From the IMG/VR virus record IMGVR_UViG_3300030101_003109, positions 1 through 22,713 of that record: DNA of 22,713 nt. One strand, 5' to 3'. This document shows, in pieces, positions 1-21,602 of this stretch (position 1 is its first letter; each line of letters begins with the position of its first letter). This DNA comes from a virus. Position numbers and translations under genes: made by a program. The notes below the pieces were generated by a model. It was not told where the DNA came from. It did not search any database and saw only the letters and a program-made list of their open reading frames with translations.

Positions 1-187
1 GTTCTCCTTCAAACTTTAAATCTCTAGTATCAATATTTACAGATGTTATTGTTTGTTCTAAATAACCATTAATAGCTATATGGTCAGCATCAGACATTAA
101 TCTTCCGTTAGGCATATAGTGAAAACCTTTAGGAGCTTTAACACCATCTTTTATTTTTACAAACAAACCTGATTCTTCGTATGCCAT
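1..187 (-). CDS. Conserved phage protein of unknown function (3' part missing)
   Basis: This minus-strand frame opens at 187 and runs off the left edge, so only the first 62 residues are visible. It begins MAYEESGLFVKIKDGVKAPK and continues with a Gly-Phe-His-Tyr-Met-Pro-Asn-Gly segment, then Leu-Met-Ser-Asp-Ala-Asp-His. From memory, this short pattern recurs in small proteins near the tail genes of marine phages; no function is known to me. The start is chosen because the ATG lies 4 nt after the stop of the preceding gene, behind the A-rich leader typical of this window. The neighbours make a late, structural or virion-associated role plausible, but that is inference. The reading frame is solid; the function is open. 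Confidence 0.75.
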   Translation of the reverse strand, partial: MAYEESGLFVKIKDGVKAPKGFHYMPNGRLMSDADHIAINGYLEQTITSVNIDTRDLKFEGE

Positions 188-191
188 TTTA

Positions 192-572
192 TTAATATTT
201 TGCGTTTATTATAATTTCACTACTAACTGCAAACAACTCTGCTTTTTCAGTAGAATTATTTTCAAATTTAGCCATAGCATAATAACCTAAAACACCACTA
301 TCACCTTGTGTAAATTTAGAGAACATTAAATAATCACCTTCATTAGGTGTACCATAGCCGTCAACATATAGTTTATAACCCACAGGCGTTGCTTTTTCAA
401 TTTTTCTTAATATACCTAATATATTAGCTTGTCCTATACCGTTTGAATCTATACGCGTGTTAGCCTGAGGATCAACAGCTCCTGTTTGCACTCCAGTTGG
501 ACATGCAAAAACTAAATCACCTACTTGAAGCGACTCGTTTAAATTATCTATTGTTAAAGTTAATACTATCAT
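192..572 (-). CDS. Small conserved late-gene protein, probably virion-associated
   Basis: The 126-aa product is predicted to be mostly beta strand, with no signal peptide, membrane segment or cysteine cluster. It starts with a hydrophobic strand and an LQVGDLVFACPTG segment (about residues 15-27), which looks like a small beta-barrel entry. It ends with the more characteristic GYYAMAKFENNSTEKAELFA stretch (about 96-115). I recall this C-terminal pattern from uncharacterised small proteins next to the tail genes of marine phages, but no experimental role. The gene follows the giant nozzle gene by about 10 nt and precedes the partial gene at the window edge by 4 nt, so it belongs to the late operon. 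A minor tail or head decoration protein is possible; that is inferred from position only. Confidence 0.75.
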   Translation of the reverse strand: MIVLTLTIDNLNESLQVGDLVFACPTGVQTGAVDPQANTRIDSNGIGQANILGILRKIEKATPVGYKLYVDGYGTPNEGDYLMFSKFTQGDSGVLGYYAMAKFENNSTEKAELFAVSSEIIINAKY

Positions 573-582
573 TTATAAATTT

Positions 583-3500
583 TTAATATCCAGAACCTCT
601 ACTTACTCTAGCTGATTGTTGTCTTAATCTTATTTGTATTTCTTCTTCTGTTTCTCTTCTAACAGTTGGAACTACTCTTTCTCTTTCTTCTTCTTGTTTT
701 TTCTCAGCTTCTTGTTTAGCTATAAGCTCTTCTCTTTTCTTTTGTTCAATTTCAAATCTTTGTTCAGCTTCTTCTACAGTTCGTACGTTTACTTGCTGTT
801 GTTGAATTTGACTTGCTTGCACTACAGCTTGTTGTTGTTGTGTCTCTTGAGCTTGCTGTTGAGCTATGGCTTGCTGTTGTTGTATTTGAGGTGCTATAAC
901 AGCGTCAGCAAAGTTACTACTAGTATCAACAGGTGCTGTAACAGGTGGTATAGATCTATAGTTACTTGGTGAGCTTTGAAAACCAACTAAAGAGGTTGGT
1001 TGAGCGCCTTTGTAACTAGGTGTAAAGTTAGAGAAAAAGCCTGGTGGAAATATACTAGCAGACGTTGGAACAAAGCTAGCGCCAGACCAAGCATTAGTTC
1101 CAGCGTAAGGATTATTTGTAGCGGTTACTGTTGGAACAGTTGGAGTAGTTGAAGTAGTGCTAGGTAAAGGTGTTAACAACGGTGTTTGAGCAACTGGAGC
1201 AAGCGTTGTAGGTACTCCACCTGGTGGAAGCGGTGGTGGTGGTGGAGCAAGTAGTATTGTTGGAACTACTGGTGGAAAAGATACTACTGATACATTTTTA
1301 ATAGGAATTTGTGTTAGAACTACAGGTGTTGGCGCAAGAATAACACCAGAGTCTATTAACTGTTGTTCTAAACTAGTTGATGTTGGTATAGCCCCAGATA
1401 CAGCAGTTAAAGAAGTAGGAATACTTGAAACAGATATACTAGGATCAATAATTAACGAAGGGAAATTTACTAAATTATCTTCATCTGGAAAACATGATGG
1501 ATCTAATTTTGTTGTATCCCAAGTGTCAGGTGTTGCTGTTGGGTTAGCTTCGTAGTCAACACCACCAACAGGAATAAACCCAATACCTTGAAAAGAAAAA
1601 TCAGCAGTGTCACTATTTACAACTAAAGGATTAACACATTTTTTTATATTATTAAACCATCTACCTTCTTTTTCTAAAAACTCATTTATATAACCTTCTT
1701 CTTTATTTGTTATTATTCTTTTTACAAACCAACCATCTTTATTATCTAAATTATAAACCTCTTGATCGTTGTAAGTTCTAGTGTCTTGATACGGAAGTGT
1801 TAAATCTTGAGATTCAAATTTATCTACTTTACTAGCACTACCTTCGTAGTTTAAAGTATGAAATACTTTAGTATCACTAGGAGCATCGTTTAATATTACA
1901 TCTATAGTAGAGCTTGTAAAATTATTGTAAAAAGTATTTCTAGGGCCATTTTCATCGTGGTGTTTATATAATCTACCTTTATCAAAAGTATAATAATCAT
2001 TAGCCATACTAATACCAAACTGCATTTCAGAAAAAGATTTAAAACTTACCCAACCTTTTGTTCTTTCTTTAAATGTTAAAACAGCTGATTTATCTATTAA
2101 AGCCATATCATCGTAAGGTGTAGCTATTAACCCTAAACCACCTAATATTTGATAGAAATTATAAGCTGTATTTTTTTGGTTTAAAAAGAAACCAGTTGAG
2201 TACTCTGGGTTATTAGCATCGCCATCAGGATAAGTTATGTTTACTGCTTGTATTTTTTCAAGCTTTACGTTGTACTCACTATTTCTGTCATCATAACTAC
2301 CTATAACTCTATTACTAATTTTAAGATTATCTCTAAACCAGTCTTTCATGCCTGCTTCAGATATAGGTGTTAAGCCGTCCATAGAAAGTCTAAGTATCGC
2401 GCCTCTAACTTTATCACTAAAATAAGCTCTATAATTTTCAGAAGCAAAAGACTCTGGGTTTGTTGATATACCATACTCACCAGCAAAAGGTATAGTTTGG
2501 CCAAGCACATTTTCAGTAGCTGTTAAGTTAGTGTTACCATCAGCGTTAAATACAGCATCTTTATTTGCTAATATTTTTAAAACTTTATCTTCACATAAAG
2601 TAACTAAATCACTATCTCTAGAATATAGTTTTTGTATACTACCATAAATAGGGTTTATATCTTTAGTTATTTTTTCAGCAGCAATAAATTGATTTAAATT
2701 ATTAACACCGCCTGTAGAGTTATATAAACCAGAATATATTAAACCATATTTTCTATGTTCTTCTTTATATTCTGTTTCTAGTGTTGTTGAAACTCTAACG
2801 CCGTTAGATATAAAAGGTAAATTAAAGTTATCTCTAATTCTATTTGACTCAACACCATTACCAAACGAATAACAATTATACCAAGGTAATTCGTAAGAGT
2901 TGTTGTACATGTTATTATCTAATCTTACAAACGCATGTATTTTTGATGGAGAACCTGCTAAACCATAAAGAACTGAGTTTGGTGGTATTATTGCTCTAAA
3001 ATCTAAATCATCTGGACGCATTATTGTAACTTCAAGAGATTTACCAAGAGGTAAAGCGGTAACTCCGCTAAAGATATTAACAAATGTAGACGGAATAAGC
3101 GTTGTTGTAGTTGAAACTTCTTCAGTAGCTATGACCAACTCATCACCTCTATAATCAACTACTATAAAGCTATCATCACCATTTATTATTTTAGAACCAA
3201 GCGGCACAGCTTCATGTATATTGTCTTCTGTTATAAACAAAGGTACAGCTGCGCTAGCTTCGTAGTATATATCTAAATCTTTTGTTTCTTTTGGTTCAGT
3301 TTCCCATATAGCTGGATTATCTGATAATATCTCTTCAGGCTCTATAGGTTCTATAAAATCTAAATGAAAACCAACAGCGCCAATAGCTCCAACATCATCT
3401 CTTGTGTTAAAGTTAAACTCAGAGTTATGGCTATAACCGTTCATACCTACTTGAACAAATACATAAGTTTGTATGACGCCACCTACATCTCCTGCAACAG

Positions 3501-6500
3501 GGTTTTTTGCTGGAACAGAAGCCAACACGTGTTCAACACTAGATAAAGGAAATCTATAACCACCTAAAGTTAACTCAAAACCATTACCACTAGCTAATTC
3601 ATTTATCTGCGTAACAACTAAAAAATCATTAGAACTTGAACCTAAGTTTGCAGAATCATTTACAGCATTACCATTGTATTCTTTTAACGCCATACCTGGT
3701 ATTAAAACTGATGTTGAATCAGTATCTTTTAAAGTAGAAACATATATTACTAAAGGAACACCTAAGCTACTACCACTAGAAGTTGTTCCACTAGTACCAC
3801 CAGTACTATCAGCTATTGCTAACGTTACCACTGTGCCATTATTTATCTGACCATCAGTAACAGGATTCCAAGCTAAGGTTTCAGGTATATTTTTAATATT
3901 AAAACCACTAGTAAAATTATGCGAAAGATGCTCTGCCATACTAACACCACCTTCTATATACCTTGCGCCACCATCGTGGCCAACATATTTAGATCTTCTA
4001 GAGCTATGTCTCAGCAAGTTTAATCTACTTAAATCTGGTATAGTGTATATTGTTTGATTTGGATCTTCTCTAAACCTAAATTGAGCACCTGGTTTAAAGT
4101 TTTGTGTAAAAGTAGTATTTTTACTATTAGCTGAAGATGTATAATAAGGGTTTTGTGATTTACCATTAGGAGTAAACCAATTGCCAAAATTAAAAAAATC
4201 TGTTGTTAACACGTCATCTGCACAACCATATATACCACCGTAAGATATAGTCATGCTCCATTTTCCTGAAGAAGAAACTGTTAAACCGCCTTGGTTTTCA
4301 TAACCACCTGACTCTGCTATATTATCTTGATATCCAGTTTCAGTAGGAGTAGGACCTGTCACATCAAATCTTAGTTTATTAGCATTTGTGTTTCCAGCGG
4401 CAGCTGTTAAACCTGCATATTTACCACTTAAATATAACCAAGATAAATCATCATCTGTACTATTTCTTCTAGCAGCGGCTGGTCCAGCATCAATAAACCA
4501 AACATCTGTTTCTATAGGATTATCAGCGCCAATTTGGTGTGGTCGTTCTTCATAATATTTCCCAAGTATACTCGATTTCTCAAGCCAGTGACCAGTATAA
4601 TTTACAGACTCACCATAAGCTTTATCATCCCAATGCCAAAACTCATTTTTATATGGAATCGCACCGACCGTGCTTGAAGTGACTTTAGTAAGTGGTAATA
4701 TTAATTTTGAATCTGCAATCGTCGTAACGCTAGTCGCAACAGGTATATTGCCAGCAACTATACCGGTAGAAACACCAGGACTAACTACACCATCAAGACC
4801 GTTACGAAAATTTGGTAGACCATCTTCACCAAAGTTTGTTGTTTTTAATCTTCTAAAGTAAGTTGACATTGAAGCGAACTCAGCGATACCATAATAACCA
4901 TAAGCTCTATCTATATCTGTGTTGGCGTAATTAAAAGCTTGAGGCCCAGCGTTAAAATCATTAGCTTCAATACCAGGATGACCATCAGTTAAAGGGTAAT
5001 TAACATTAGTTCCAGACCAATGCTTTTCAATATGTTCATCTCTATTTTTCATAGAATAAATTATGCTACTAGATATAACTCTAAAATCTAAACCATCTAA
5101 AAATGATTTACCTATGTTTTCTGTAAATACTTCGTCTAAAAATATTTTTACAAAAAATCTACCATCAAATTTTGGTGTATTTTCTACTCTATATTTATAT
5201 ATATTAACCGTGGTACCATTATTAATACTAGTTGAGTTAGCTCCTGATGGATCGTTAGATATAAAGTTTACGTCTGATCCTAATGGTTTCTCTAACTGTA
5301 TACTAAATTGTGCATTAGCTACTCCAACAGAAGCATCTGTAGAGTTTTGAGTTATTGATGTAATTCTATAACGCTCTGAAGTTTGAAGACCACTTTGAAA
5401 CTCTATATATAATTGAGCATCAGTAACTATATCTAAGTTTCTACCAGGACCACTAGCAAAAGGACTATAATCCATTTTAAACTCATCTCTACCTATTAAA
5501 GGCAATTGACCAGCGCTAAATAAATTTACTGCAACAGAACTATGTGTAGCGCTAACACTTAATAATTTATTAGTTTTTATAAAATCAGGTGCTTCATTTT
5601 CAACTGCTAAAACTTTGTATCTAGCAACATCTGTAACTAAAGTGTCTTGATCAGAACCTTTTTTTAGTATTATAAAAGTATCTATATCTATTTTGTTTCT
5701 ATCAGAAGAAGGAAAAGCAAGCCAAATATTACCATCTTCAGCGTCGTAAAAACGATCCATAGCCATATTATAATATTCACCAGCTGTTTCTTTTATATAA
5801 AACTTCATGTGAGTAGCGTTCTGAGGTCTACTCAAAGCTTGTAATAATTGAACTTGAAATCTATTATATTTATCTGCTCTTTCTTTTTCAAGTTTTATAG
5901 CCCCAGATGTGTTTGATATTACAGGAGTTTCTCTACCGTACTCATCTGTAAACACAACTCCTAGTTGGTATTCTCTAAGTGATTTTACAGATTTTAAAGT
6001 TTCAGTTATATTTGGATCAACTAAAACGCTATCAAGACCATTATCGTAATATTCTTTACTTGGATTATTACTCCAGTAAACAGATATGTTTGGTGTGTAT
6101 TTTTTACCATCTAAAGATATTAAAGTGTAGTTTTGTATATAGTTACCATATACTATTCTATTACCAGTTACATCTTGTGCTAACGCTCTTCTTGGCACAT
6201 TGTCATAAGGTCGTAACAATTGATTAGAAGGTACAACAGTTCTTACTGTTTCTTTACTTATAATATAAGGGTTTGATGCAACTCCACTTACCCAGTTACC
6301 TCTATTAGACTTCCAAGAGTTAGTACCAGGTGTATCTTCGTAATCATCTTGACTAATAGTATCTACAACATAAATAACAGGTGATGCATCATCTTTAAAT
6401 AATATATCAATAGATGTAACGTCTTTTGGTGTTTGTGGCGTTACTATTCTAGTGAGCTCTATTTCTTTAGCTCTGTTGGTCATACCTAAATTATAACCTT

Positions 6501-7740
6501 TTTTAGGATGGTAATCAAAAGCGCCTGGTCTAAACGCTACTTGTGTAAAAGGTGCAAACGGTGAATATTCTCCATCTTCAAATTTATATCTATAAGAAAA
6601 TCTAGGAAACTTAAATTCAAATAGTTTTTCTTCTTCATCCCAAAGATCTATTACGTATTTTATTTCATTGTTTCCATCTGCTGGAATTGGTGGAATACCA
6701 ACTTGAGATAATATTTTAATTGTAAAACCAGAATCAAACGTGTTAGCATCAGTATCAGGATCATAATCTACAACTATACCCTTTAAAACGTAATCTGTTA
6801 AAGGTAGTCCAGGTGGAGTGTTATCATCATCAAAAGGAGATATAGCAAATTTTGTTCCAACAGCTATAGCGTTATTGTTTCCGGTTGGGTTTGTTGGTCC
6901 AGTGTGCCAACCTGTAAGACCATCTGAATTGTTTACATCACCTATACTTTGTATATCAGCAGTTGATTGAGACAAACCTTCTACTACAGACAAAGATAAA
7001 GTATCACCAGTTTCATTTAAAGTAACATCTCTATCAGTGCCAACTTCAATACCTGAAAAATCATATAAGCCACCAAAAAAAGAAGAGTTGGCTTTATTAT
7101 CTTCTGTAGTAATAGTTAAAACACCTGTGTATATTTTATTAGGATTTCTATCAACAGAAACACGCATGTCTAAAGGTTTCTTAGGCGCTTTTTTAATTAC
7201 TGTTATATGTTTTTCCTCTATGTCTATATTAGTTAAAGACTGGCTATCATTTATTAATTTAGTCTGCGCTGCTAAACTAGTTGTACCTTGCTTAGATCTA
7301 GTTATGTTTATTTTTCTAGGCTCATTAATATTATCAGTCCAGAATAACATATCATCAATAATATTAATACCAGTTATAATATTTATTGGATCAAACTTTA
7401 AAACGTTTTTATTTATATCAACAAAAATAGGTGTAGGATTATTATCTAGTCTTGAGTGTTCAAATATATAATCAGCGTCTAACGTCCAAACAAAATAATA
7501 TAACTTATCGTTTTTTTCGTCAGATATAGAAGCTACAGTTGTTGCGTGATCTGGTAATACTACACCATCAATAACAACTTCTGTATTACCTAATATATTT
7601 TGAGCAGTACCAACGTCAGACTCTTCAGACGTAGAAACTTGCACATTCATGGCATCTCTATATTCTCCATTAGGAACAAGCCTATCATCAAGGTCTTTGT
7701 TCATTTTACCACTAATGAACGTGTGTTTAATCTCTGGCAT
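583..7740 (-). CDS. Giant tail nozzle/hub protein (stabilization or muzzle-like)
   Basis: This 2385-aa protein is the largest in the window and probably forms the distal tube or nozzle of a short tail. The N-terminus (residues 8-52) carries the pattern ISGKMNKDLDDRLVPNGEYR followed by a QNILGN turn, which I recognise from the tail stabilization/muzzle proteins of crAss-like phages and their marine relatives. Further family-like blocks are FPRFSYRYKFEDGEYS (about 380-395), VVFTDEYGRETPVISN (about 590), NPAIWETEPK with LDIYYEAS (about 1470), NCYSFGNGVESNRIRDNFN (about 1619), and EYGISTNPESFASENYRAYF (about 1750). Residues about 2090-2275 are rich in Pro, Ser and Thr, including a five-proline run. 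Residues 2285-2320 are Gln-rich, and 2320-2375 look like a charged coiled coil. It starts 3 nt after the second ring-protein gene. The length and C-terminal tail look unusual. The family call is from pattern recall. Confidence 0.78.
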   Translation of the reverse strand: MPEIKHTFISGKMNKDLDDRLVPNGEYRDAMNVQVSTSEESDVGTAQNILGNTEVVIDGVVLPDHATTVASISDEKNDKLYYFVWTLDADYIFEHSRLDNNPTPIFVDINKNVLKFDPINIITGINIIDDMLFWTDNINEPRKINITRSKQGTTSLAAQTKLINDSQSLTNIDIEEKHITVIKKAPKKPLDMRVSVDRNPNKIYTGVLTITTEDNKANSSFFGGLYDFSGIEVGTDRDVTLNETGDTLSLSVVEGLSQSTADIQSIGDVNNSDGLTGWHTGPTNPTGNNNAIAVGTKFAISPFDDDNTPPGLPLTDYVLKGIVVDYDPDTDANTFDSGFTIKILSQVGIPPIPADGNNEIKYVIDLWDEEEKLFEFKFPRFSYRYKFEDGEYSPFAPFTQVAFRPGAFDYHPKKGYNLGMTNRAKEIELTRIVTPQTPKDVTSIDILFKDDASPVIYVVDTISQDDYEDTPGTNSWKSNRGNWVSGVASNPYIISKETVRTVVPSNQLLRPYDNVPRRALAQDVTGNRIVYGNYIQNYTLISLDGKKYTPNISVYWSNNPSKEYYDNGLDSVLVDPNITETLKSVKSLREYQLGVVFTDEYGRETPVISNTSGAIKLEKERADKYNRFQVQLLQALSRPQNATHMKFYIKETAGEYYNMAMDRFYDAEDGNIWLAFPSSDRNKIDIDTFIILKKGSDQDTLVTDVARYKVLAVENEAPDFIKTNKLLSVSATHSSVAVNLFSAGQLPLIGRDEFKMDYSPFASGPGRNLDIVTDAQLYIEFQSGLQTSERYRITSITQNSTDASVGVANAQFSIQLEKPLGSDVNFISNDPSGANSTSINNGTTVNIYKYRVENTPKFDGRFFVKIFLDEVFTENIGKSFLDGLDFRVISSSIIYSMKNRDEHIEKHWSGTNVNYPLTDGHPGIEANDFNAGPQAFNYANTDIDRAYGYYGIAEFASMSTYFRRLKTTNFGEDGLPNFRNGLDGVVSPGVSTGIVAGNIPVATSVTTIADSKLILPLTKVTSSTVGAIPYKNEFWHWDDKAYGESVNYTGHWLEKSSILGKYYEERPHQIGADNPIETDVWFIDAGPAAARRNSTDDDLSWLYLSGKYAGLTAAAGNTNANKLRFDVTGPTPTETGYQDNIAESGGYENQGGLTVSSSGKWSMTISYGGIYGCADDVLTTDFFNFGNWFTPNGKSQNPYYTSSANSKNTTFTQNFKPGAQFRFREDPNQTIYTIPDLSRLNLLRHSSRRSKYVGHDGGARYIEGGVSMAEHLSHNFTSGFNIKNIPETLAWNPVTDGQINNGTVVTLAIADSTGGTSGTTSSGSSLGVPLVIYVSTLKDTDSTSVLIPGMALKEYNGNAVNDSANLGSSSNDFLVVTQINELASGNGFELTLGGYRFPLSSVEHVLASVPAKNPVAGDVGGVIQTYVFVQVGMNGYSHNSEFNFNTRDDVGAIGAVGFHLDFIEPIEPEEILSDNPAIWETEPKETKDLDIYYEASAAVPLFITEDNIHEAVPLGSKIINGDDSFIVVDYRGDELVIATEEVSTTTTLIPSTFVNIFSGVTALPLGKSLEVTIMRPDDLDFRAIIPPNSVLYGLAGSPSKIHAFVRLDNNMYNNSYELPWYNCYSFGNGVESNRIRDNFNLPFISNGVRVSTTLETEYKEEHRKYGLIYSGLYNSTGGVNNLNQFIAAEKITKDINPIYGSIQKLYSRDSDLVTLCEDKVLKILANKDAVFNADGNTNLTATENVLGQTIPFAGEYGISTNPESFASENYRAYFSDKVRGAILRLSMDGLTPISEAGMKDWFRDNLKISNRVIGSYDDRNSEYNVKLEKIQAVNITYPDGDANNPEYSTGFFLNQKNTAYNFYQILGGLGLIATPYDDMALIDKSAVLTFKERTKGWVSFKSFSEMQFGISMANDYYTFDKGRLYKHHDENGPRNTFYNNFTSSTIDVILNDAPSDTKVFHTLNYEGSASKVDKFESQDLTLPYQDTRTYNDQEVYNLDNKDGWFVKRIITNKEEGYINEFLEKEGRWFNNIKKCVNPLVVNSDTADFSFQGIGFIPVGGVDYEANPTATPDTWDTTKLDPSCFPDEDNLVNFPSLIIDPSISVSSIPTSLTAVSGAIPTSTSLEQQLIDSGVILAPTPVVLTQIPIKNVSVVSFPPVVPTILLAPPPPPLPPGGVPTTLAPVAQTPLLTPLPSTTSTTPTVPTVTATNNPYAGTNAWSGASFVPTSASIFPPGFFSNFTPSYKGAQPTSLVGFQSSPSNYRSIPPVTAPVDTSSNFADAVIAPQIQQQQAIAQQQAQETQQQQAVVQASQIQQQQVNVRTVEEAEQRFEIEQKKREELIAKQEAEKKQEEERERVVPTVRRETEEEIQIRLRQQSARVSRGSGY
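792..888 (-). repeat. CAA/CAG-type low-complexity tract encoding a Gln-rich segment
   Basis: This part of the giant nozzle gene is built from repeated Gln codons (CAA and CAG on the minus strand, seen as TTG and CTG on the plus strand). It encodes runs of two to four glutamines separated by Ala, Ile and Val at about residues 2285-2316. Such triplet-rich DNA can vary in length by slippage, but one sequence cannot show variation. Confidence 0.7.
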
Positions 7741-13431: not shown

Positions 13432-13460
13432 AATATAATATAATAATAATTAATAAATTT
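13432..13460 (-). promoter_or_regulatory. AT-only leader, copy 2 of a shared 28-30 nt element
   Basis: The region before the start codon at 13431 reads, on the transcribed strand, TTTATTAATT, then ATTATTATATT, then ATATTATG. It matches the leader at 10701-10729 except for small length differences. It lies between the portal stop codon and the scaffold-like gene and lacks a Shine-Dalgarno sequence. Confidence 0.5.
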
Positions 13461-15876
13461 ACTTAGGATCAAAACTTCCTAATCCAAAGCCACCACCTAG
13501 TATATCATTACCTGATGACTCAAAGTTTTTAGGTGGTTTGTTGTTTAATCTTTGATCTATAAGTTCGCTTTGTTGAGAAGCTTGCATTCTTGTTCTATCG
13601 TCTTTTCTATTTTCTTTTATAGTTTCTTTCATATCAACTTGTTTCATGTTCATTTGCTGTAACTGTTGATTTATTTGAAACTCTAATTGCATTAATCTCA
13701 TTTTATGCTCAACTTCTAATTCCATTTCTTGTGCTTTTAACTGAGACTTCATTTGCTCTAGTTGAGCGTTGTTTTGTGTAATAGCTTGATTTTTTTGAAC
13801 TTCAGCCTGAGCAGCTACTTGTTGTGCTTGTGCATTAGCTTGTGCTTGTGCTTGAATGTTTTGCTGTTGAACTAATTGATCTCTTTGTTGTTTTTTCTTT
13901 CTTCTAATTTTAAGCACTTGATTTGCTAGTTTAACATTTCTAATTTCTCTAACATCAATAGCATCTTCAAGATCTATACTCTGTTGTTGTATAGCCATTT
14001 GTATATTGTTTTCTAACATTGCTTTTTCTTCTTCATCCGGCATTAACTCTAAAAATATACCAAAATCATAAAGATGTAGCTCAGACATTTCTTTTAATGT
14101 AGCTAAATTATGACCACCTATAGCTTGTATAAATGCATCTGCAGCTGGAGAATATTCTAATATATCTGATATTCTAAGCGATAAACACTCTGCAACTTCT
14201 GATGTTAAAAATAAACCAGCTTGTAGTATATGTCTTGTCGCTGTGTTAGAGTTAGCTGCTGCTAATTTTTGAACACCAACTAAAGCGTTTTTATCTGGTA
14301 TACTACCATCTCTAGCTTCGTTAAGTCCGGTTACATCTCTTATCATTTGTAAATAGTAATTGTAATTACCAATAAGAGCTTGCATTTTGTTACCACCGCT
14401 ACCACTAGTTATTTCTTGTATTGGCACTTTACCAGGATTCATATCACCTTCAGAAGTAAACGATCTACCTATAACAGAACCTGTTTGGAAGAACATGTTT
14501 AAAGCTTCTTGCGGATTATAGTTTGTACCGTTACCTAAATCAACTTCAGCTAAACCATCAGCATCAAGATACACACCATCTGGAACCATACGTGACATTA
14601 CTTGTTGTAGCTTCAAATGTGTAAGCTGTATCATATCAGCAAAACCAGTAATACGTCTTACTAATGAATCAATTTTACCGTTATACATACGTGGCGCTAC
14701 AATAGAGTAATTCATTTTAACTTTAGTATAATCACTTTTTGGCCTCATCATATTGCTAGCCATTTCCCATTTAAGAAGTTTATCAGTACCTAATATTAAA
14801 GCTCCATCGTAAAGTGTTTCTATAGATCTTAACATTTTTGCAAAGCCACCTTCCATGTTTTCAGGTGGATTAAACCTATCATCTTTAGGTATAATTTTAT
14901 CAGCACCAGTGCCAGTTTCTTTTATTTTGTAAACCTCATTCATATACGTTTTATAATTAAAATACAAAACTTGAATAGTATTGTTATCTTCTTTATCTTC
15001 ACTATGCCTTGAGCTATAATTAGAACGATTATAAGATTTGTTTTTCATTATATCTTCTAAATCAGACTCAGATAAATGTGGAAACTCTTTTGCTAATTCA
15101 TTAACAGGTATAGTTTTTACTTCACCAACATAATATATATCTTCAAAATAAGGTGATTCAGTATAAGAATAAACTAAATTAGCTGGATCTACATAATCAA
15201 CAGTAACACCTTCAGATGTATTAAAACCTGTTTTTACCGCACCTATACCTAAAACAGCTAGATCATAATAAAATCTTTTTTTAGTTAACTCGTATCTATT
15301 ACCATCTAACAAAGTATTTATAGCTTGCTCTTCTGCTATTTCTACAGCTTGCTTGTAATTTAACTGCATGTGTAACTGTAACTCTTCTTCAGAATCTGGT
15401 AAAGTCTCTGGATCATTGTCAGTTATTTGTATACCAAAAGCTTCTTCTGTAAAGTCGTTTAAATCTTTAGTACGCATGTCAGCTAGTATAGACTCCATGT
15501 AAGCAGTTCTTTTACTCATACCGTATGTATCTTGAGAATATGCTTTTATATCATAAAGTCTTTCTGTCATACCATTTACAACTATATCTACAAATTTAGA
15601 TACAATTGGAACTGGCTTCCAGTCTAAATTTAAATAGGACAAGTCACCGTTTATAGATAATTCGTCCTTGTACTTTTGTATTGATTGCTCGCCCCTAGCG
15701 TATAATCTTAAATTATGAAAATCGCTATGATGATCCCTGTATCTGTTAGAACCTCTGTCGCTATTAAACCACTCTTGCTCTATAGCTTTAGCAACCTTTA
15801 AACCATAGTCATAGCTTATTTTTTCAGCATCGCTTACAGTTTGACTAGGAAAATAACTTTTACCAGAATATGCCAT
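13459..15876 (-). CDS. Portal protein
   Basis: The 805-aa product fits a podophage or crAss-like portal, the dodecameric ring through which DNA enters and leaves the head. Residues 55-70 (NLRLYARGEQSIQKYK) and 80-102 (SYLNLDWKPVPIV followed by KFVDIVVNGM) match portals of this group as I recall them. The middle contains the expected helical core with RDVTGLNEARDGSIPD near residue 520. Residues about 658-770 are a very Gln/Ala-rich, then Gln/Met/Lys-rich predicted coiled coil, which could form a barrel inside the head. The last 15 residues are Gly-rich. The gene follows the large terminase gene with a 2-nt gap and precedes the scaffold-like gene, the canonical head-module order. Length and context support the call. 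Confidence 0.88.
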   Translation of the reverse strand: MAYSGKSYFPSQTVSDAEKISYDYGLKVAKAIEQEWFNSDRGSNRYRDHHSDFHNLRLYARGEQSIQKYKDELSINGDLSYLNLDWKPVPIVSKFVDIVVNGMTERLYDIKAYSQDTYGMSKRTAYMESILADMRTKDLNDFTEEAFGIQITDNDPETLPDSEEELQLHMQLNYKQAVEIAEEQAINTLLDGNRYELTKKRFYYDLAVLGIGAVKTGFNTSEGVTVDYVDPANLVYSYTESPYFEDIYYVGEVKTIPVNELAKEFPHLSESDLEDIMKNKSYNRSNYSSRHSEDKEDNNTIQVLYFNYKTYMNEVYKIKETGTGADKIIPKDDRFNPPENMEGGFAKMLRSIETLYDGALILGTDKLLKWEMASNMMRPKSDYTKVKMNYSIVAPRMYNGKIDSLVRRITGFADMIQLTHLKLQQVMSRMVPDGVYLDADGLAEVDLGNGTNYNPQEALNMFFQTGSVIGRSFTSEGDMNPGKVPIQEITSGSGGNKMQALIGNYNYYLQMIRDVTGLNEARDGSIPDKNALVGVQKLAAANSNTATRHILQAGLFLTSEVAECLSLRISDILEYSPAADAFIQAIGGHNLATLKEMSELHLYDFGIFLELMPDEEEKAMLENNIQMAIQQQSIDLEDAIDVREIRNVKLANQVLKIRRKKKQQRDQLVQQQNIQAQAQANAQAQQVAAQAEVQKNQAITQNNAQLEQMKSQLKAQEMELEVEHKMRLMQLEFQINQQLQQMNMKQVDMKETIKENRKDDRTRMQASQQSELIDQRLNNKPPKNFESSGNDILGGGFGLGSFDPK
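13570..13905 (-). repeat. Low-complexity Gln/Ala-rich coding tract in the portal gene
   Basis: This part of the portal gene encodes repeated Gln-Ala, Gln-Gln and Gln-Met units (about residues 658-770). It is dominated by CAA and GCA/GCT codons on the minus strand. It is read here as a long coiled coil rather than a DNA-level element. Confidence 0.55.
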
Positions 15877-15878
15877 AT

Positions 15879-18092
15879 TTATTTTATTATTTGTGAATTT
15901 GTTCCAGTATTCCTATATTTAGAAATACTTATATTTAGTTTAGGTTTTTCAACCTTTACGTTTGGTGCGTACAAATGTCTATTGTTTGCCATTATAGCTA
16001 ACCCAGAACTTATTGATGCATCAAACTTTGTTCTTTTGTTTATATCAAACTTACTCCAATCGTTTAGTAATTCATTAAAATATAAACTACCAAAACTACC
16101 ATCTTGCTTCATGCCAACATGATCTTGTATATACATTTCAATTGCAGCAGCGTGAGCTTGCTTAATGTCTTCTGAAGAGTTTGGTATACCACCTATTTCT
16201 TTTTCTGCTGTAGATAATTTGTTCCAAGATTTATCAGGTCTATTCATACTAAAACCTCTATAACCTCTACGTCGTAAATAATACAACAGTCTTGGTTTGT
16301 TATTCTCTGCTAATATTGGCATACCATAAAAAACTAACGCCATTAATACATCTTCAAAGAATATTTCAGCTGTAGGTGGTCTTGACAAGTATTCTAAAAA
16401 AAAGCTGTTCGCAGGAGCGTCCTCCATACTAAACCTGGTTAAGCCGTGTAATGCTCCTTTAGATCCTTTACCATCTACAGTTCCTGATATATCATAAGAG
16501 TCACAACCAAATGCTCCCATGTGTTCATTACCAGGATATTTTACACCGTTTTTAAGAACCACTCTATTTTGTAAATGCTGAGGTGGAACCCAGCTAAGTT
16601 TAAATCTACCTTTTGGTTCTGGGTAGAATATTACTTGTGTATCTTTTATTCCGTTAAACCATTGAAAATTACCTGTAGTAACTCCTAGGTTTTTAGATAA
16701 TTCTTCGTTATAATCTATTTGCTCGTATATTTTTACTAAATTAAATATACTATTTTTTGTTTCATCTCTAAACGCATGCTCAGTAGTTCTTGGAAACTGC
16801 CTATAAAACTCGTTTAAAGCATCTTGATCGTTTTTTAAACCATCAACTTCGTTTTGCCAACTATCTATTACACCTACATCTATTAGTTCACCATCTGGGG
16901 CGAACACATCGCTGTCAGGAGTAGTGAATACTGGAACTCCGTACTCATCAATAAATCCTTCGTAGTTCCACTCCATTGGGATAAACAAAGAGTATAAACC
17001 AGATTTTGTTTGACCATTTCTATTTCTCTTAGTGACATCTGATGCATTATATAACTTTTTAAAATTATCTCCACCTTTGTCTAGGGCGTTGGAAGTTGAC
17101 CCCATCATACACTTACCTATAATTCTACTACCTAACCTTAAACATGTCTTTGTGACACGCCAGTTGTTTAATATATTATCAGGTCTTTCCCACTTACCAC
17201 TTTCGTCGTGTACTAGTAATTGTAGCTTTTCTCCATCATAGCTATTGTCACCTGTGTTTTTCCAATCAATAGTAGTATCAAGTCCAGCCAAGTCTTCCTG
17301 CTGTTCATTTGTAGTAATTTTTTTACGCGTAAACTTACTTGCAGGTACCCTATAAGCAAGCTCAGACTTAGGTCTGTCCATACCGTCTTGAATCGGTTTA
17401 AAAAAGAACGGGTAATTAATTGATATTGGAACAACTTTGTCTGTGAACATTTTTTTAGCATCTGCACCTGTTTTAGAAAGTATACCATATCTACTATCAC
17501 TTGAAATAGTAGCTAAATTAACTGTTTCAGCAGAAGACATAAAAGAAAAACCACTACGTCTGTTTTTAAGATAACACATACCATAGCACCTTTTATCTGC
17601 TTTACAAGCTTCCCAGAATATAAAGAATAATCTATTTGCCTCTCTAAAATCTGGAGCACCTACATCTATTTTACTCCACTGTAAATACATATAATGCGTA
17701 CCTACTATATAAGTTGGTTTACCATTGTTTGTAAACCAAAAACCTTCATCTCTTCTTTTGAACTCTTCGTCTATGTAATCGTACCACTGTTCTTTTTGCT
17801 CTTCAGGGTAATTTCTCCAATCAAATATATTTTTTAATCTAGCTAGTTCTTTAGGTTGATCAAATTTTACCCATTTGTTTTTTGGGTGCACGTACACTCG
17901 TTTTGGTTCCAACGGCAAGCCAATTCGCAAACCTTGAATTTCAAGTATTTCACCGATTTTACCAGTTTTTGATATAACGACAATATCATGTTCTTTATCA
18001 TATCCATATTTCCATTTTTTAGATTTATTAAGTCTACTAATAGTAGTCTTTTTAATCGGTTCTATTATTTTAACTAAACTTTGACTGTACAT
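15879..18092 (-). CDS. terL: Terminase large subunit (ATPase/nuclease packaging motor)
   Basis: The 737-aa product packages DNA into the procapsid and cuts it. The N-terminal ATPase half has a P-loop-like KNRRSGFS (176-183). It deviates from the usual GxxxxGK(T/S), lacking the normal Lys before Ser. A Walker B strand LQLLVHDE (290-297, with Asp296 and Glu297) and a coupling motif GST (331-333) follow. The C-terminal nuclease half shows FGCDSYD (Asp531), a later acidic residue in ILAEN (Glu596), and a candidate third acidic residue at Asp691, in the order expected of an RNase H-like fold. The segments around KWERP and QTKSGLYSLFIP match crAss-like terminases as I recall them. The start overlaps the stop of the preceding gene by 1 nt (TAATG), which suggests translational coupling. 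Confidence 0.93.
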   Translation of the reverse strand: MYSQSLVKIIEPIKKTTISRLNKSKKWKYGYDKEHDIVVISKTGKIGEILEIQGLRIGLPLEPKRVYVHPKNKWVKFDQPKELARLKNIFDWRNYPEEQKEQWYDYIDEEFKRRDEGFWFTNNGKPTYIVGTHYMYLQWSKIDVGAPDFREANRLFFIFWEACKADKRCYGMCYLKNRRSGFSFMSSAETVNLATISSDSRYGILSKTGADAKKMFTDKVVPISINYPFFFKPIQDGMDRPKSELAYRVPASKFTRKKITTNEQQEDLAGLDTTIDWKNTGDNSYDGEKLQLLVHDESGKWERPDNILNNWRVTKTCLRLGSRIIGKCMMGSTSNALDKGGDNFKKLYNASDVTKRNRNGQTKSGLYSLFIPMEWNYEGFIDEYGVPVFTTPDSDVFAPDGELIDVGVIDSWQNEVDGLKNDQDALNEFYRQFPRTTEHAFRDETKNSIFNLVKIYEQIDYNEELSKNLGVTTGNFQWFNGIKDTQVIFYPEPKGRFKLSWVPPQHLQNRVVLKNGVKYPGNEHMGAFGCDSYDISGTVDGKGSKGALHGLTRFSMEDAPANSFFLEYLSRPPTAEIFFEDVLMALVFYGMPILAENNKPRLLYYLRRRGYRGFSMNRPDKSWNKLSTAEKEIGGIPNSSEDIKQAHAAAIEMYIQDHVGMKQDGSFGSLYFNELLNDWSKFDINKRTKFDASISSGLAIMANNRHLYAPNVKVEKPKLNISISKYRNTGTNSQIIK

Positions 18093-18367
18093 TACTTAGA
18101 TCTGCCTTCTGCGAATCCTTTAAAAGCTTTTTTCTCTGTCTTTTCAGATGTCTTGCCCTCAAGCAAGTTTTCTTCTTCTTGGATTCTATTAAGTATTTCA
18201 AACGCATCAAATATAGCTAATTTTTTAGTAGCTGCTGCATTTTTTAATCTATCAGCTGATATATCATCGTCAGAATCTACAATAGCTTCTCTAGCTACTT
18301 TTATAAGCTCTTCAACTGCTTTATGCCCAGCTTGGATTATACTCTTCTTCGTTTCCTTGATATTCAT
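18092..18367 (-). CDS. Putative terminase small subunit
   Basis: I place the start at 18367, giving 91 aa beginning MNIKETKKSIIQAGHKAVEE. An in-frame ATG at 18418 would add 17 residues and lengthen the overlap with the upstream gene from 47 to 98 nt. The product is helical and charged, with a central ADRLKNAAATKKLAIFDAFE stretch. I recall this from small proteins directly upstream of large terminases in related phages, where it would recognise the packaging start and regulate the motor. Its position (a 1-nt TAATG overlap with the large-subunit gene) and size support the call. No clear helix-turn-helix is seen, so the assignment is mainly contextual. Confidence 0.65.
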   Translation of the reverse strand: MNIKETKKSIIQAGHKAVEELIKVAREAIVDSDDDISADRLKNAAATKKLAIFDAFEILNRIQEEENLLEGKTSEKTEKKAFKGFAEGRSK

Positions 18368-18902
18368 ATTTAATTGTAATAAAATTTGATAAAACTCTGT
18401 ATAGTCTTTCGTTATCAACTATAAATTCATATTTACTGTTTGGTCTAACGCCAACTAAATCGTTAACATTTACAGTGCCATCAGAATATTTTACAATACC
18501 TTGTAATGGCTTTTCAGTTTCAATATTAAACTGATCCACCGCTTTCAAAGGCTTTACAAAACAATAACCTTTTGGAGCTACCCAGTATTTATTTCTTTTG
18601 TATAAAAATATTTGATCTTTATTTATAAAATAAGTGTTTTCGTTAAAATAGCTTTTACTATTACGCTCTACACCTTTCATATCGTGCCATCTTCTAAAAA
18701 CATTATGATGCACTATAACTGTATCACCAGGTTTTACATCTGTATTACCAATAATAGGTGTTGATATAACTATTGCTTCTCTATTTACATATTGATGATT
18801 AAAGATCTCAGTGTTAATTATTAACTCTGAGTCTCCAACTTTTTTAGTATTATTATATCTTTTTCCTTTTGGTTTTACAACAAAGTTGTAAACGCTTTTC
18901 AT
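18321..18902 (-). CDS. Putative tandem GroES-like (double Cpn10-fold) protein
   Basis: The 193-aa product is beta-rich and appears to hold two similar halves. The first (about 26-102) has REAIVISTPI, then TDVKPGDTVIVHHN (54-67), then YFINKDQIFLYK (91-102). This is the order of a GroES subunit: a conserved strand, a Lys-x-Gly-Asp-x-Val turn, and a closing strand ending at a Asp-x-Ile motif. The second (about 112-180) repeats the order with CFVKPL, VNVNDLVGVRPN, YEFIVDNERLYRV and FITIKY. The two could form one subunit with two Cpn10-like domains, perhaps a folding cap for phage proteins. I infer this by pattern only; no long exact motif proves it. It overlaps the 73-aa gene by 1 nt (TAATG) and runs 47 nt into the small-terminase gene. 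A structural protein with two beta-barrels is the main alternative. Confidence 0.6.
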   Translation of the reverse strand: MKSVYNFVVKPKGKRYNNTKKVGDSELIINTEIFNHQYVNREAIVISTPIIGNTDVKPGDTVIVHHNVFRRWHDMKGVERNSKSYFNENTYFINKDQIFLYKRNKYWVAPKGYCFVKPLKAVDQFNIETEKPLQGIVKYSDGTVNVNDLVGVRPNSKYEFIVDNERLYRVLSNFITIKYEYQGNEEEYNPSWA

Positions 18903-19123
18903 TAGTACTCTAAGTTATATTCTACAGAAACAGCCATGTTTTTATTAAAGTCTTTCCATGGTAATACATCTTTTTTCTTTTTAATATAAATAGAATATTT
19001 ATCATCTTCTTCTATTATATTACAAATAGTATGTCCACCGTAAACCTCTTGTCCAACAGCGTAGTGCATAGCGTCGTTTTTGTAGTCTTTACCTATACTT
19101 ATCTTACGAATTAACTTTGACAT
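18902..19123 (-). CDS. Small conserved phage protein of unknown function
   Basis: The 73-aa product contains ISIGKDYKNDAMHYAVGQ (8-25), a Gly-Gly-His turn and a C-terminal PWKDFNKNMAVSVEYNLEY (55-73). I recall this combination from small conserved proteins upstream of the terminase in marine phages, with no known role. It has no membrane segment or cysteine pairs beyond a single Cys. Its start overlaps the previous gene by 20 nt and its stop overlaps the next start by 1 nt, so translation is probably coupled. The tight clustering and conserved-looking core argue for a real gene. Confidence 0.75.
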   Translation of the reverse strand: MSKLIRKISIGKDYKNDAMHYAVGQEVYGGHTICNIIEEDDKYSIYIKKKKDVLPWKDFNKNMAVSVEYNLEY

Positions 19124-19385
19124 CGTCTTTGTAATTAATTTTACCTGTTTGAATATCTATATCATAAGTACCATAGTCTTTTTCAAACTCAGCTTGTAAT
19201 ACACTTAATTGATCTCTGTTTCCAGCTATTTGATGTAATAGCTCATGTTTTTTAACTTCCATTGAACCAATTTCTAACTGTGCTCTATTTATACCGTTTA
19301 CAGTGTTTTGAACTTTTTTTAATTGTTCATCTGTTATTTTTTCTGCTTTTTGTTTTAAGTCTACTATTTTTTCTTTTTTTGCCAT
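19104..19385 (-). CDS. Small coiled-coil protein of unknown function
   Basis: The 93-aa product is mainly helical from about 5 to 70, with heptad-like spacing and a Lys/Glu-rich start, and ends with EKDYGTYDIDIQTGKINYKD (68-87). The helix plus the YGTYDI-type tail recurs, as I recall, in small uncharacterised proteins of related phages upstream of the packaging genes. No catalytic or membrane motif is seen. A chaperone-like, adaptor or core protein is possible, but nothing in the sequence decides. Its ATG follows an A/T-only stretch of about 34 nt with a 9-nt direct repeat (TTAATTTAA, plus 19391-19409). Confidence 0.72.
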   Translation of the reverse strand: MAKKEKIVDLKQKAEKITDEQLKKVQNTVNGINRAQLEIGSMEVKKHELLHQIAGNRDQLSVLQAEFEKDYGTYDIDIQTGKINYKDDVKVNS

Positions 19386-19419
19386 TTTATTTAATTTAAG
19401 TTAATTTAATATTTATATT

Positions 19420-20169
19420 TTATGATATATATTCTTGTGACCAAGTGTTTATTAAGCCTCTTTCAGTGCTTGTTAACTGTCTATCCCAAACAACAAGTTG
19501 TTTTAACGCACCAGTAAGAGTATCTGTAGTTGCTCTTCTTCCAAATTGTTCTATTACAAAGTCGTTTCCAGCACTTGTTTCAGTGTCAGCTTGTGCTGTG
19601 TTGTTTATAAATAATGTTAAATTACCAGAATCATCACAAGTTAACATTACAGACACAAAGTCATCATCGGTTAAAGCGCTATCAAGATCAAAAGTTCTTG
19701 CTTGATTACCTGCTTTAACAGTAAATGAATCCGCAGCATTATGTCTAAAAAAGTTAGCACTATCGTCTGGATCACCATACAAAGCCTGTTGAGCACCATT
19801 CCAGTCGGTAGCTGAGTATATACCCATTATAGTCCAACCGCCAACGCTAGTGTCTAATGTTAATTGTATATCAGACCCTGAAGAAGCGGCATCTTTAAAT
19901 TCAAAAGCATTTGAACCACCAGTTCCTATACCATTTACACCAGCTGGTGTTCCCGCAATTAAAGATGTATTTGCTGAAACAGATGGTATTGCAAACAAAT
20001 TACCAGATCCTGAATAATGAGCAGCTTGCCAAGATGTAATGTTTCCTTTATTTGAGCTAACATTTTGTTCAGAGTCAAACCAAAACACTATATCATCTAT
20101 ACTTGTAGGCGTAAATGGTAATTCTTCAGTGACACCACCTTTTGTTATACTATTTCCTAAGCCTAACAT
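19420..20169 (-). CDS. LamG/ConA-like lectin-fold virion protein
   Basis: The 249-aa product begins MLGLGNSITKGG and continues with SIDDIVFWFDSEQNVSS (23-39). The rest is a predicted beta sandwich with the strand order of a concanavalin A-like/LamG domain, closing with GNLTLFINNTAQ, then LTGALKQLVVWDRQLTSTER (218-237) and an INTWSQEYIS helix. Such domains bind glycans in many proteins, so it could be a head fibre, decoration or receptor-contact protein. I recall similar proteins with the same GLGNS-TKGG start in marine phages. Its ATG overlaps the stop of the preceding gene by 1 nt (TAATG). No signal peptide or catalytic residues are seen; carbohydrate binding is inferred from fold. Confidence 0.72.
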   Translation of the reverse strand: MLGLGNSITKGGVTEELPFTPTSIDDIVFWFDSEQNVSSNKGNITSWQAAHYSGSGNLFAIPSVSANTSLIAGTPAGVNGIGTGGSNAFEFKDAASSGSDIQLTLDTSVGGWTIMGIYSATDWNGAQQALYGDPDDSANFFRHNAADSFTVKAGNQARTFDLDSALTDDDFVSVMLTCDDSGNLTLFINNTAQADTETSAGNDFVIEQFGRRATTDTLTGALKQLVVWDRQLTSTERGLINTWSQEYIS

Positions 20170-20540
20170 TATATACCTACGTAAGCTATTACTCTACCTG
20201 AAGCTAATTTAAAACCAGTCCACCTACCGTATATAGTTACACCTTTTGGAAAAGTCTCACTATCAACAACATCACCACCATCAGCGTCAATATCTGTACT
20301 GTTACCATCTGAGCTAGGAAAGTTTTGTGCTTCAGCAGGAACTAAACCAGTAGCACCACTATCAAACACTGTGTCTTCTAAAAATGTTATTGCTACAAAA
20401 ACTTTTGTAATTCTATTTACGTTTGAAGCTGGAGTTGCATCAGTATCGTCTCCACCTATTATTGTTATAGCTTCTGTGCCAGCAACGTGTATACTACCTA
20501 GTTGACCAAAAGCGTAATCTGTTGGATCTTTAAATGCCAT
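20169..20540 (-). CDS. Probable small virion surface protein
   Basis: The 123-aa product is Gly/Asp/Thr/Ser-rich, acidic and beta-predicted, with no membrane segment. It starts MAFKDPTDYAFGQLGSIHVA and ends with a conserved-looking YGRWTGFKLASGRVIAYVGI segment (104-123). The composition (low Lys, many Asp, Thr and Val) resembles secreted or capsid-surface proteins. It overlaps the LamG-like gene by 1 nt, so the two are probably translated together and may act in the same external structure, for instance as a fibre base. The function is inferred from composition and neighbour only. Confidence 0.68.
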   Translation of the reverse strand: MAFKDPTDYAFGQLGSIHVAGTEAITIIGGDDTDATPASNVNRITKVFVAITFLEDTVFDSGATGLVPAEAQNFPSSDGNSTDIDADGGDVVDSETFPKGVTIYGRWTGFKLASGRVIAYVGI

Positions 20541-20544
20541 AATT

Positions 20545-20931
20545 TTATTTTTTTACTTTTTCTAGTGATCTACCGCCAAAATAAGCGCCGATCACAGTTA
20601 TTAATACTAATTGCAAAAGATCAATATAAGAATCTTTTACGTTAAATTTTATTGCACCAGCATCTATAAATATTAATAGCATGGTGCATACTATTAAAAA
20701 TATCAATACCATTGGCCTAACATTTTTACTAAGCCATGAATCTGATTTTAAATCTGCTTGCCAGCGAGACGTTATATTCTTTTCCATTTCTATCTCGTAG
20801 TTAGCAAGTAGTTCTTTTATTTTTCTTTCAGCTTCTAGTTTCTCTTCTTTTGAAGTATGTAGTTTATCTATAACTCCACCTACATTTTTTACTAAATCAG
20901 CAGCTCCACCAGACAATAGTTTACTTAACAT
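20545..20931 (-). CDS. Holin-like membrane protein (3TM/GTA-holin type)
   Basis: The 128-aa product has an amphipathic start, a charged helical stretch (28-58), a WLSKNVRP motif (66-73), and two hydrophobic segments (about 72-91 and 103-121), ending in a basic tail. The Trp-Leu-Ser-Lys-Asn-x-Arg-Pro pattern before the first membrane segment is characteristic, as I recall, of the GTA_holin_3TM family, whose members make membrane lesions for lysis. The N-terminal amphipathic helix may count as a third segment. The gene follows a second small membrane-protein gene by 1 nt and lies near an HExxH protein, a possible lysis cluster. A recognisable endolysin is not in the window. Confidence 0.78.
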   Translation of the reverse strand: MLSKLLSGGAADLVKNVGGVIDKLHTSKEEKLEAERKIKELLANYEIEMEKNITSRWQADLKSDSWLSKNVRPMVLIFLIVCTMLLIFIDAGAIKFNVKDSYIDLLQLVLITVIGAYFGGRSLEKVKK

Positions 20932-21167: not shown

Positions 21168-21602
21168 TTATACTGTTCCGTTGTCGTTTCCATTATTAGC
21201 ATCGTTTTCCCATGGAAAACCTGTATCTCCTGCTTCTTTCCATACGCCATCTACTAGTATAGAGTCAACACCGTTTACATCTTTTCTAGGAAAATACTCT
21301 CCATTGTAAGTTACACTATCATCAGTGTAAGATAGCTTACCAAGTTTCATGTCTGTAGAGTGTCTCATCTCGTGGTTTAACACTTGACGATAATCTTCAC
21401 TACCTGGCGCTATGTCTTCATTTATATATATAGTACCATCCATATTAGCTTCACCTAAAACTCCTTCATCTAAAGGTACTCTTATAACAGGTGTACCAGG
21501 TACAGAACCATCTTCACCGGCTTGCTGACCAAAACGTAGTTTAGTTTTGATTTCACCACCGACAGCATAATTACCTCTTTCTTTACCTAGTTTAAATCCC
21601 AT
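21168..21602 (-). CDS. HExxH-motif protein, putative zinc metallopeptidase
   Basis: The 144-aa product contains HEMRHSTD (77-84). His77, Glu78 and His81 match the HExxH zinc-binding/catalytic signature, and Asp84 is a candidate third ligand in an HExxHxxD arrangement. The start MGFKLGKERGNYAVGGEIKT and a VLGEANMDGTIYIN segment (48-61) are familiar to me from uncharacterised marine-phage proteins, but no activity is established that I know of. It has no signal peptide or cysteine pair. Its start overlaps the winged-helix gene's stop by 1 nt. Beside membrane-protein genes it might act in lysis; as a late gene it might also process virion proteins. Both are inferences, and the HExxH pattern alone can occur by chance. 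Confidence 0.7.
   Translation of the reverse strand: MGFKLGKERGNYAVGGEIKTKLRFGQQAGEDGSVPGTPVIRVPLDEGVLGEANMDGTIYINEDIAPGSEDYRQVLNHEMRHSTDMKLGKLSYTDDSVTYNGEYFPRKDVNGVDSILVDGVWKEAGDTGFPWENDANNGNDNGTV

Follow-up and report, generated by a model that had tools for sequence, protein, structure and literature searches.

IMG/VR record IMGVR_UViG_3300030101_003109 is a 22,713-base virus fragment (the window). Its minus strand carries one uninterrupted open reading frame (ORF) for a giant protein, which an earlier note, made from the DNA letters alone, had read as a muzzle-type nozzle with a low-complexity tail. What is this protein, where does its conserved part end, and what might the remainder do? 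By its Pfam matches the protein is a crAss-type muzzle. Comparison with relatives indicates that its conserved core ends at a junction which, in this group, is a variable slot: between the core and a conserved domain termed P2 there are disordered tails, Cys-rich tails, or another gene. We hold this split-slot anatomy to be very probable.

A crAss-Type Muzzle with a Conserved Core

Both Pfam muzzle models exceed their curated cut-offs on this protein, in agreement with the crAss-like stabilization or muzzle identity proposed in the note. The gene lies within a head and tail module: upstream of it, in the same orientation, are PHROGs for terminase, portal, and virion structural proteins. Among named phages the best muzzle matches come from Cellulophaga and Flavobacterium phages. 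A PDB sequence search with the muzzle protein gave no match, and a PDB profile search returned a single chance-level match, to an invertase. Most relatives' BLAST matches end near residue 2056, directly past a QGIG-type motif.

583-7740, minus strand: muzzle ORF, 2385 amino acids, 263.6 kDa
7255-7725, minus strand: best-matching stretch for crAss_MUZ, residues 6-162 (Pfam, 33.2 bits for the whole protein, cut-off 27)
1573-7740, minus strand: conserved muzzle core, residues 1-2056 (relatives' BLAST matches)
1642-1950, minus strand: crAss_MUZ_C, residues 1931-2033 (Pfam, 40.5 bits, cut-off 27)
1579-1590, minus strand: junction motif QGIG, residues 2051-2054 (motif comparison across relatives)

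A QG[ILVF][GDAS]-type junction motif is present in 133 of 135 distinct relatives, with the Q absent from one copy.

The Core-P2 Junction Is a Variable Slot

P2 is not contiguous with the core in the window; it forms the next gene.

192-572, minus strand: P2 gene, 126 amino acids, next gene after the muzzle; in other lineages and in cultured relatives the muzzle C-terminus includes this domain
2-187, minus strand: start of a P3-like gene, truncated where the record ends (resembles P3 N-termini by eye)

The relatives examined are a sample, drawn from six viral scans (five of them with loci, at most 80 each) and from one genome scan with four loci. Repeats of a locus were collapsed at 97% identity across the final 170 (set of 92) or 120 (set of 135) core residues. 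We sorted the tails by thresholds of our own into the classes CYS, BARE, LOWC, FUSED, and P3F; some LOWC rows outside the window's clade are Cys-rich or folded-looking (L227, L254, L251, L242, L264, and L283).

The 92 distinct complete C-termini of the muzzle-anchored set comprise 46 CYS, 18 BARE, 12 FUSED, 10 LOWC, and 6 P3F cases. P2 was found in 90 of them, as a separate gene in 78 (adjacent in 58, farther away in 20) and fused in 12; the locus is cut off in the other two. With a P2-anchored scan added, the set grows to 135 (61 CYS, 32 BARE, 20 LOWC, 12 FUSED, and 10 P3F), with P2 in 133 (adjacent 68, farther 53, fused 12; cut off 2), although P2 was the query that brought in 43 of the 135, so that its presence in those is no evidence. 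All 68 muzzles with an adjacent P2 gene (gaps of -33 to +32 nucleotides) have a tail, of 99-1296 residues. Where P2 lies farther away, 31 of 53 muzzle tails measure 45 residues or fewer, and every short-ended muzzle with P2 in view (31/31) belongs to this group. A P3-family gene stands between muzzle and P2 in 25 of these 31; five of the other six have a large other ORF, and none is listed in L128. In classes CYS and LOWC, P3 comes next after P2 in 53 of the 58 P2-adjacent loci.

The fillers of the slot are diverse. The Cys-rich tails reach 1296 residues, and some fillers contain FN3 or LRR domains. CYS tails such as L037:16138-18066 contain many copies of GCTDPxAxNYNPxAxxDDGSC-like repeats, for which no Pfam model matched in the ten sequences scanned; a text search for DDGSC listed ten titles, all unrelated. 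Three of the ten scanned fillers have a Pfam match above cut-off: fn3 (L037), LRR_4 (L195), and Lcl_C in a separate gene (L062). The last locus (15426-20565) lies outside the set of 135, its muzzle ending short of the junction motif; it encodes two separate Cys-repeat proteins in tandem (844 and 849 residues), each beginning with its own copy of the motif, and the Lcl_C match falls in the first. A 78-column stretch is common to the P3 family and the tails of the ten P3F loci (profile match probability 94.8, E 5e-8; control with P2, probability 0.1). A P2 fold search gave no match at E <= 0.001; an alignment of P2 with whole muzzle ends misplaced its N-terminus and was not used for folding.

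A first tree held 88 of the 92 rows, four of fewer than 400 residues being left out. A second, quick tree, rooted on phages phi38:1 and elemoF, held 128 of the 135 rows plus these two outgroups; omitted were five rows under 400 residues together with L182 and L080, both on very long branches in the first tree. Supported branches force at least four changes of the fused state, and the sisters L188 (fused) and L048 (with an 826-residue tail) illustrate such a switch. Judging from this tree, both splitting and re-fusion of muzzle and P2 seem possible. The ten tree members of the window's clade group with full support (SH-aLRT, Shimodaira-Hasegawa-like approximate likelihood ratio test, 100) and all have tails of 127-329 residues.

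The Window's Tail

The earlier note had placed a tail of about 300 residues near residue 2090. A distinct low-complexity end is indeed present, but it starts after residue 2056 and measures 329 residues.

586-1572, minus strand: lineage-specific tail, residues 2057-2385 (relatives' alignments, homologue searches, composition)
1441-1572, minus strand: acidic tail start, residues 2057-2100, net charge -8 (composition)
898-1440, minus strand: Pro/Ser/Thr-rich, charge-poor, predicted disordered stretch, residues 2101-2281 (AlphaFold2, composition)
1231-1245, minus strand: PPPPP run, residues 2166-2170 (sequence)
784-897, minus strand: Gln-rich tract, residues 2282-2319, opening the predicted helix (AlphaFold2, composition)
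792-890: 42-bp tandem repeat, 2.6 copies, overlapping the Gln-rich tract
607-783, minus strand: charged, E/K/R-rich predicted helix, residues 2320-2378 (AlphaFold2)
586-606, minus strand: C-terminal peptide, residues 2379-2385, last residues Ser-Gly-Tyr

Pro, Ser, Thr, and Gln together account for a fraction of 0.427 of the last 300 residues, which none of 8664 control windows equalled (300-residue windows from other plus-strand ORFs in the fetched loci, not deduplicated); Pro content alone was equalled in three. The low-complexity character described earlier is thus extreme, and the reported five-proline run and Gln-rich tract, the latter from about residue 2285, are both present.

The tail is also coding sequence, as indicated by its codon-position composition and codon usage. 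Guanine-plus-cytosine fractions at the three codon positions are 0.556/0.492/0.128 in the tail and 0.431/0.385/0.158 in the core, and synonymous codon usage of the tail fits that of the core (log-likelihood -278.9 vs -404.1 for uniform usage). Given this core-like signature in an uninterrupted ORF, we rejected the possibility, raised in the note, of a separate or frame-joined gene.

Structure prediction by segments, as the note had recommended, was performed with AlphaFold2 on residues 1581-2385 (64 alignment rows; mean predicted local distance difference test score, pLDDT, 52.9). Ten-residue blocks of the tail score 30-47 up to about residue 2280, consistent with disorder, and one continuous helix is predicted for residues 2282-2378, with blocks of pLDDT up to 94. 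Prediction confidence for long Gln-rich or charged helices is often inflated, and no heptad hydrophobic periodicity was found in the charged tail end (six shuffle tests, p 0.33-0.95). We therefore speak of a predicted helix: the charged stretch noted before (residues 2320-2361) lies within it, but a coiled coil is not supported. A fold search with the modelled segment ranked 7qok_A, the PhiCrAss001 muzzle, first with a weak E of 0.15; the same muzzle as 7qol_P scored Z 2.1, and unrelated long-helix matches scored higher, up to Z 6.5. Close to its C-terminus, the portal protein (window 13459-15876, minus strand) is likewise Gln-rich and charged over a stretch, so such ends are not peculiar to the muzzle in the window.

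BLAST found no homologue of the tail in phage records with the low-complexity filter on, which can hide such sequence, and none of 23 pattern matches in IMG/VR was confirmed. Against 11 clade relatives, the window is 0.46-0.62 identical over the last 170 core residues and 0.42-0.56 over P2, and its tail reaches 0.18-0.32 (mean 0.24), hardly above shuffled sequence (0.17-0.24, mean 0.21); the highest value is 0.32 vs 0.21 shuffled, with L137. Means over all 66 clade pairs are 0.59 for the core, 0.51 for P2, 0.26 for the tail, and 0.22 for the shuffled tail. Close pairs were first selected by their last 60 core residues and by tails of at least 45 residues; where cores are at least 75% identical, the tail is less identical than the core in 12 of the 13 pairs listed, the exception being a fused pair (0.95 vs 0.94). 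As far as these searches reach, the tail is lineage-specific and without detectable homologues. This answers a question posed in the note: relatives do not share the tail as one folded domain but have unrelated ends.

Known Systems and Cultured Relatives

The muzzle gp44 of PhiCrAss001 (PDB 7qok/7qol; PMC10172136) matches the same Pfam models as the window protein, and the ends of fused-type muzzles, compared by profile with those of gut muzzles, give E 2e-11. In contrast to the window muzzle, gp44 ends 38 residues past crAss_MUZ_C (1244-1333 of 1371) and has no such tail. P2 was not detected in gp44. The last residues of P2 can be aligned with the gp44 end, and this sole profile alignment looks good by eye, but at E 0.36 the equivalence is no more than a lead; the reverse search with the gp44 end put background ORFs on top and listed only 13 of 137 P2 sequences. 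The T7 nozzle gp12 is a hexameric tail tip that closes the channel, and the ring-joining domain and propeller of gp44 are similar to it (PMC10172136). T7 gp12 works like a muzzle and is smaller, and the portions of PMC6702177 available to us describe no such tail; the likeness drawn here is one of function.

A muzzle match was present in 87 phage records; four of these, from Pervagoviridae, Pachyviridae, and Elemovirus, were examined. Phages phi38:1 (Cellulophaga, Pervagoviridae) and elemoF (Flavobacterium) share a homologous core (38% and 28% query coverage, about 33% identity). Unlike the window, both have P2 fused at the muzzle C-terminus and no tail. Hidden Markov model (HMM) E-values for P2 at the muzzle end, computed on the four loci only, are 1.4e-12 in elemoF and a weaker 3.2e-5 in phi38:1. 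In Cellulophaga phage phi18:3 (Pachyviridae) the muzzle is split too and its freed C-terminus extended; both pieces, gp114 and gp115, are annotated in the phage's record from tandem mass spectrometry. The phi18:3 split, unlike that of the window, lies upstream of crAss_MUZ_C, and P2 is fused to the end of the C-terminal piece (gp115, 2.4e-14), as in MW202828 (3e-14), a record from spring water that is not known to come from a cultured phage. In three cultured relatives P2 forms part of the muzzle or of its end piece. Past its last muzzle-like residue, gp114 (L289:6004-10842) extends for 428 residues with a Big_9/cadherin-like domain, and the larger MW202828 piece for 353 residues. L006, L019, and L202 are split near the gp114 break point, upstream of crAss_MUZ_C, with extensions in L006 (290 residues) and L202 (76 residues).

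We found no description of the C-terminal slot in literature on crAss-like muzzles and Cellulophaga phage tails, largely without subscription papers and as far as the available text of these sources goes (PMC10172136, PMC12386605, PMC11054128, PMC10136315, PMC6702177). According to the text of the PhiCrAss001 paper accessible to us (PMC10172136), it is the crass and IG2 regions of the muzzle that vary in length, and the one muzzle structure found is that of a gut crassvirus without the slot.

What the Freed End May Do

We surmise that the muzzle gene was split at the core-P2 junction and that P2 would join the muzzle non-covalently. Six freed C-termini, if the hexamer of PhiCrAss001 applies, could then show exchangeable elements on the tail exterior. 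For the window we picture a flexible Pro/Ser/Thr stalk that passes into a long Gln-rich and charged helix and a short Tyr-ending peptide; this element may reach the host envelope or hold a partner that does. An external position is suggested by the adhesin-type domains in some fillers, by tail volume, and by the view, expressed in the available part of PMC10172136, that the muzzle probably contacts the cell. We give an even chance to an exchangeable display point at the muzzle end, probably external and with a flexible stalk in the window; that such external display serves host contact could go either way. The earlier note had offered plug, tether, or host contact. Host contact fits best, given the adhesin-type domains of some other lineages at the same position; a tether is possible, and the size of the largest tails hardly suits a plug.

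The C-terminal Tyr bears on this choice. It was first spotted by eye and then counted on the same data after the classes were set: 9 of 20 LOWC tails end in Tyr, compared with 8 of 1098 other genes (Fisher 5e-13), and 5 of 20 in Gly-Tyr, compared with 2 of 1098 (Fisher 2e-8). The background consists of non-overlapping ORFs of at least 100 residues, not curated, and one of its two Gly-Tyr ends is the L202 muzzle fragment; a separate gene of L062 likewise ends in Gly-Tyr. Tyr ends number 8/61 in CYS, 2/32 in BARE, 0/10 in P3F, and 0/12 in FUSED. Two Tyr-ending loci, L238 and L259, belong to a distant clade.

An assembly tether, in which the tail stands in for the lost covalent link and anchors P2, P3, or a fibre protein at the muzzle's ring-joining end through its helix and C-terminal peptide, would account for the tail in all 68 P2-adjacent muzzles, and the recurrent Tyr could be its docking peptide. 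The stretch that P3F tails share with the P3 family fits as well, but searching the ten tails with the P3 HMM gave no hit. The 31 muzzles that manage with at most 45 tail residues beside a separate P2, and Cys-repeat tails far longer than a tether needs, make this role rather unlikely. Little-constrained low-complexity expansion at a tolerant C-terminus is suggested by the 42-bp tandem repeat at the Gln tract and by the scarcely alignable tails within the clade; we consider it improbable, since no P2-adjacent muzzle has fewer than 99 tail residues and the Tyr end is non-random. Similarly doubtful is a lumen plug or cargo guide, with six tails filling the tail tube and leaving with the cargo: the largest would amount to 6 x 1296 residues or 0.82 MDa, against about 0.4 MDa of cargo space in the PhiCrAss001 tail barrel according to the accessible text of PMC10172136, and the Cys-rich repeats, fn3, or LRR of some tails are unlike the mostly helical cargo of that phage.

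Several observations weigh against a split muzzle with external display for host contact. The window tail contains no adhesin domain, and seven of the ten scanned fillers have no domain above the Pfam cut-off. Tail class follows the tree (22 changes vs a shuffled mean of 65.0), so exchange of the elements is not free. Nor are the Tyr counts independent: seven of the nine come from the window's clade (7 of 12 members), and several of the CYS Tyr ends (8/61) fall within a repeat unit. The likeness of P2 to the PhiCrAss001 gp44 end is not significant. No structure sets the inside or outside position of the C-terminus, and the T7 nozzle C-terminal domain is, in the part of PMC6702177 available to us, a platform that faces the adaptor rather than the tip. 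By this analogy the stalk would start proximally, but a long one could yet reach outwards.

The split-slot reading predicts two-chain muzzles with the C-terminal elements on the outside. The variable slot and the detachable, conserved P2 would offer a testable site for host-range determinants in uncultured Bacteroidota phages. More tentatively, a widespread environmental crAss-like group may possess a muzzle split into two reassembling polypeptides, the break serving as a general display port for exchangeable host-contact modules, with disordered Tyr-ending stalks as one class.

Neighbouring Genes

In several phages a small gene that by eye resembles a GNAT acetyltransferase comes after the muzzle, the muzzle's end piece, or P2:

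L288:9991-10389, GNAT-like gene
L289:11571-11981, GNAT-like gene
L290:10495-10902, GNAT-like gene
L064:18838-19248, GNAT-like gene

On the minus strand of the window, positions 21168-21602 encode a 144-residue protein with an HEMRH stretch, which we take to resemble a zinc-protease motif, and positions 19420-20169 a 249-residue protein matching Laminin_G_3, a ConA-like lectin (28.2 bits, cut-off 27.6).
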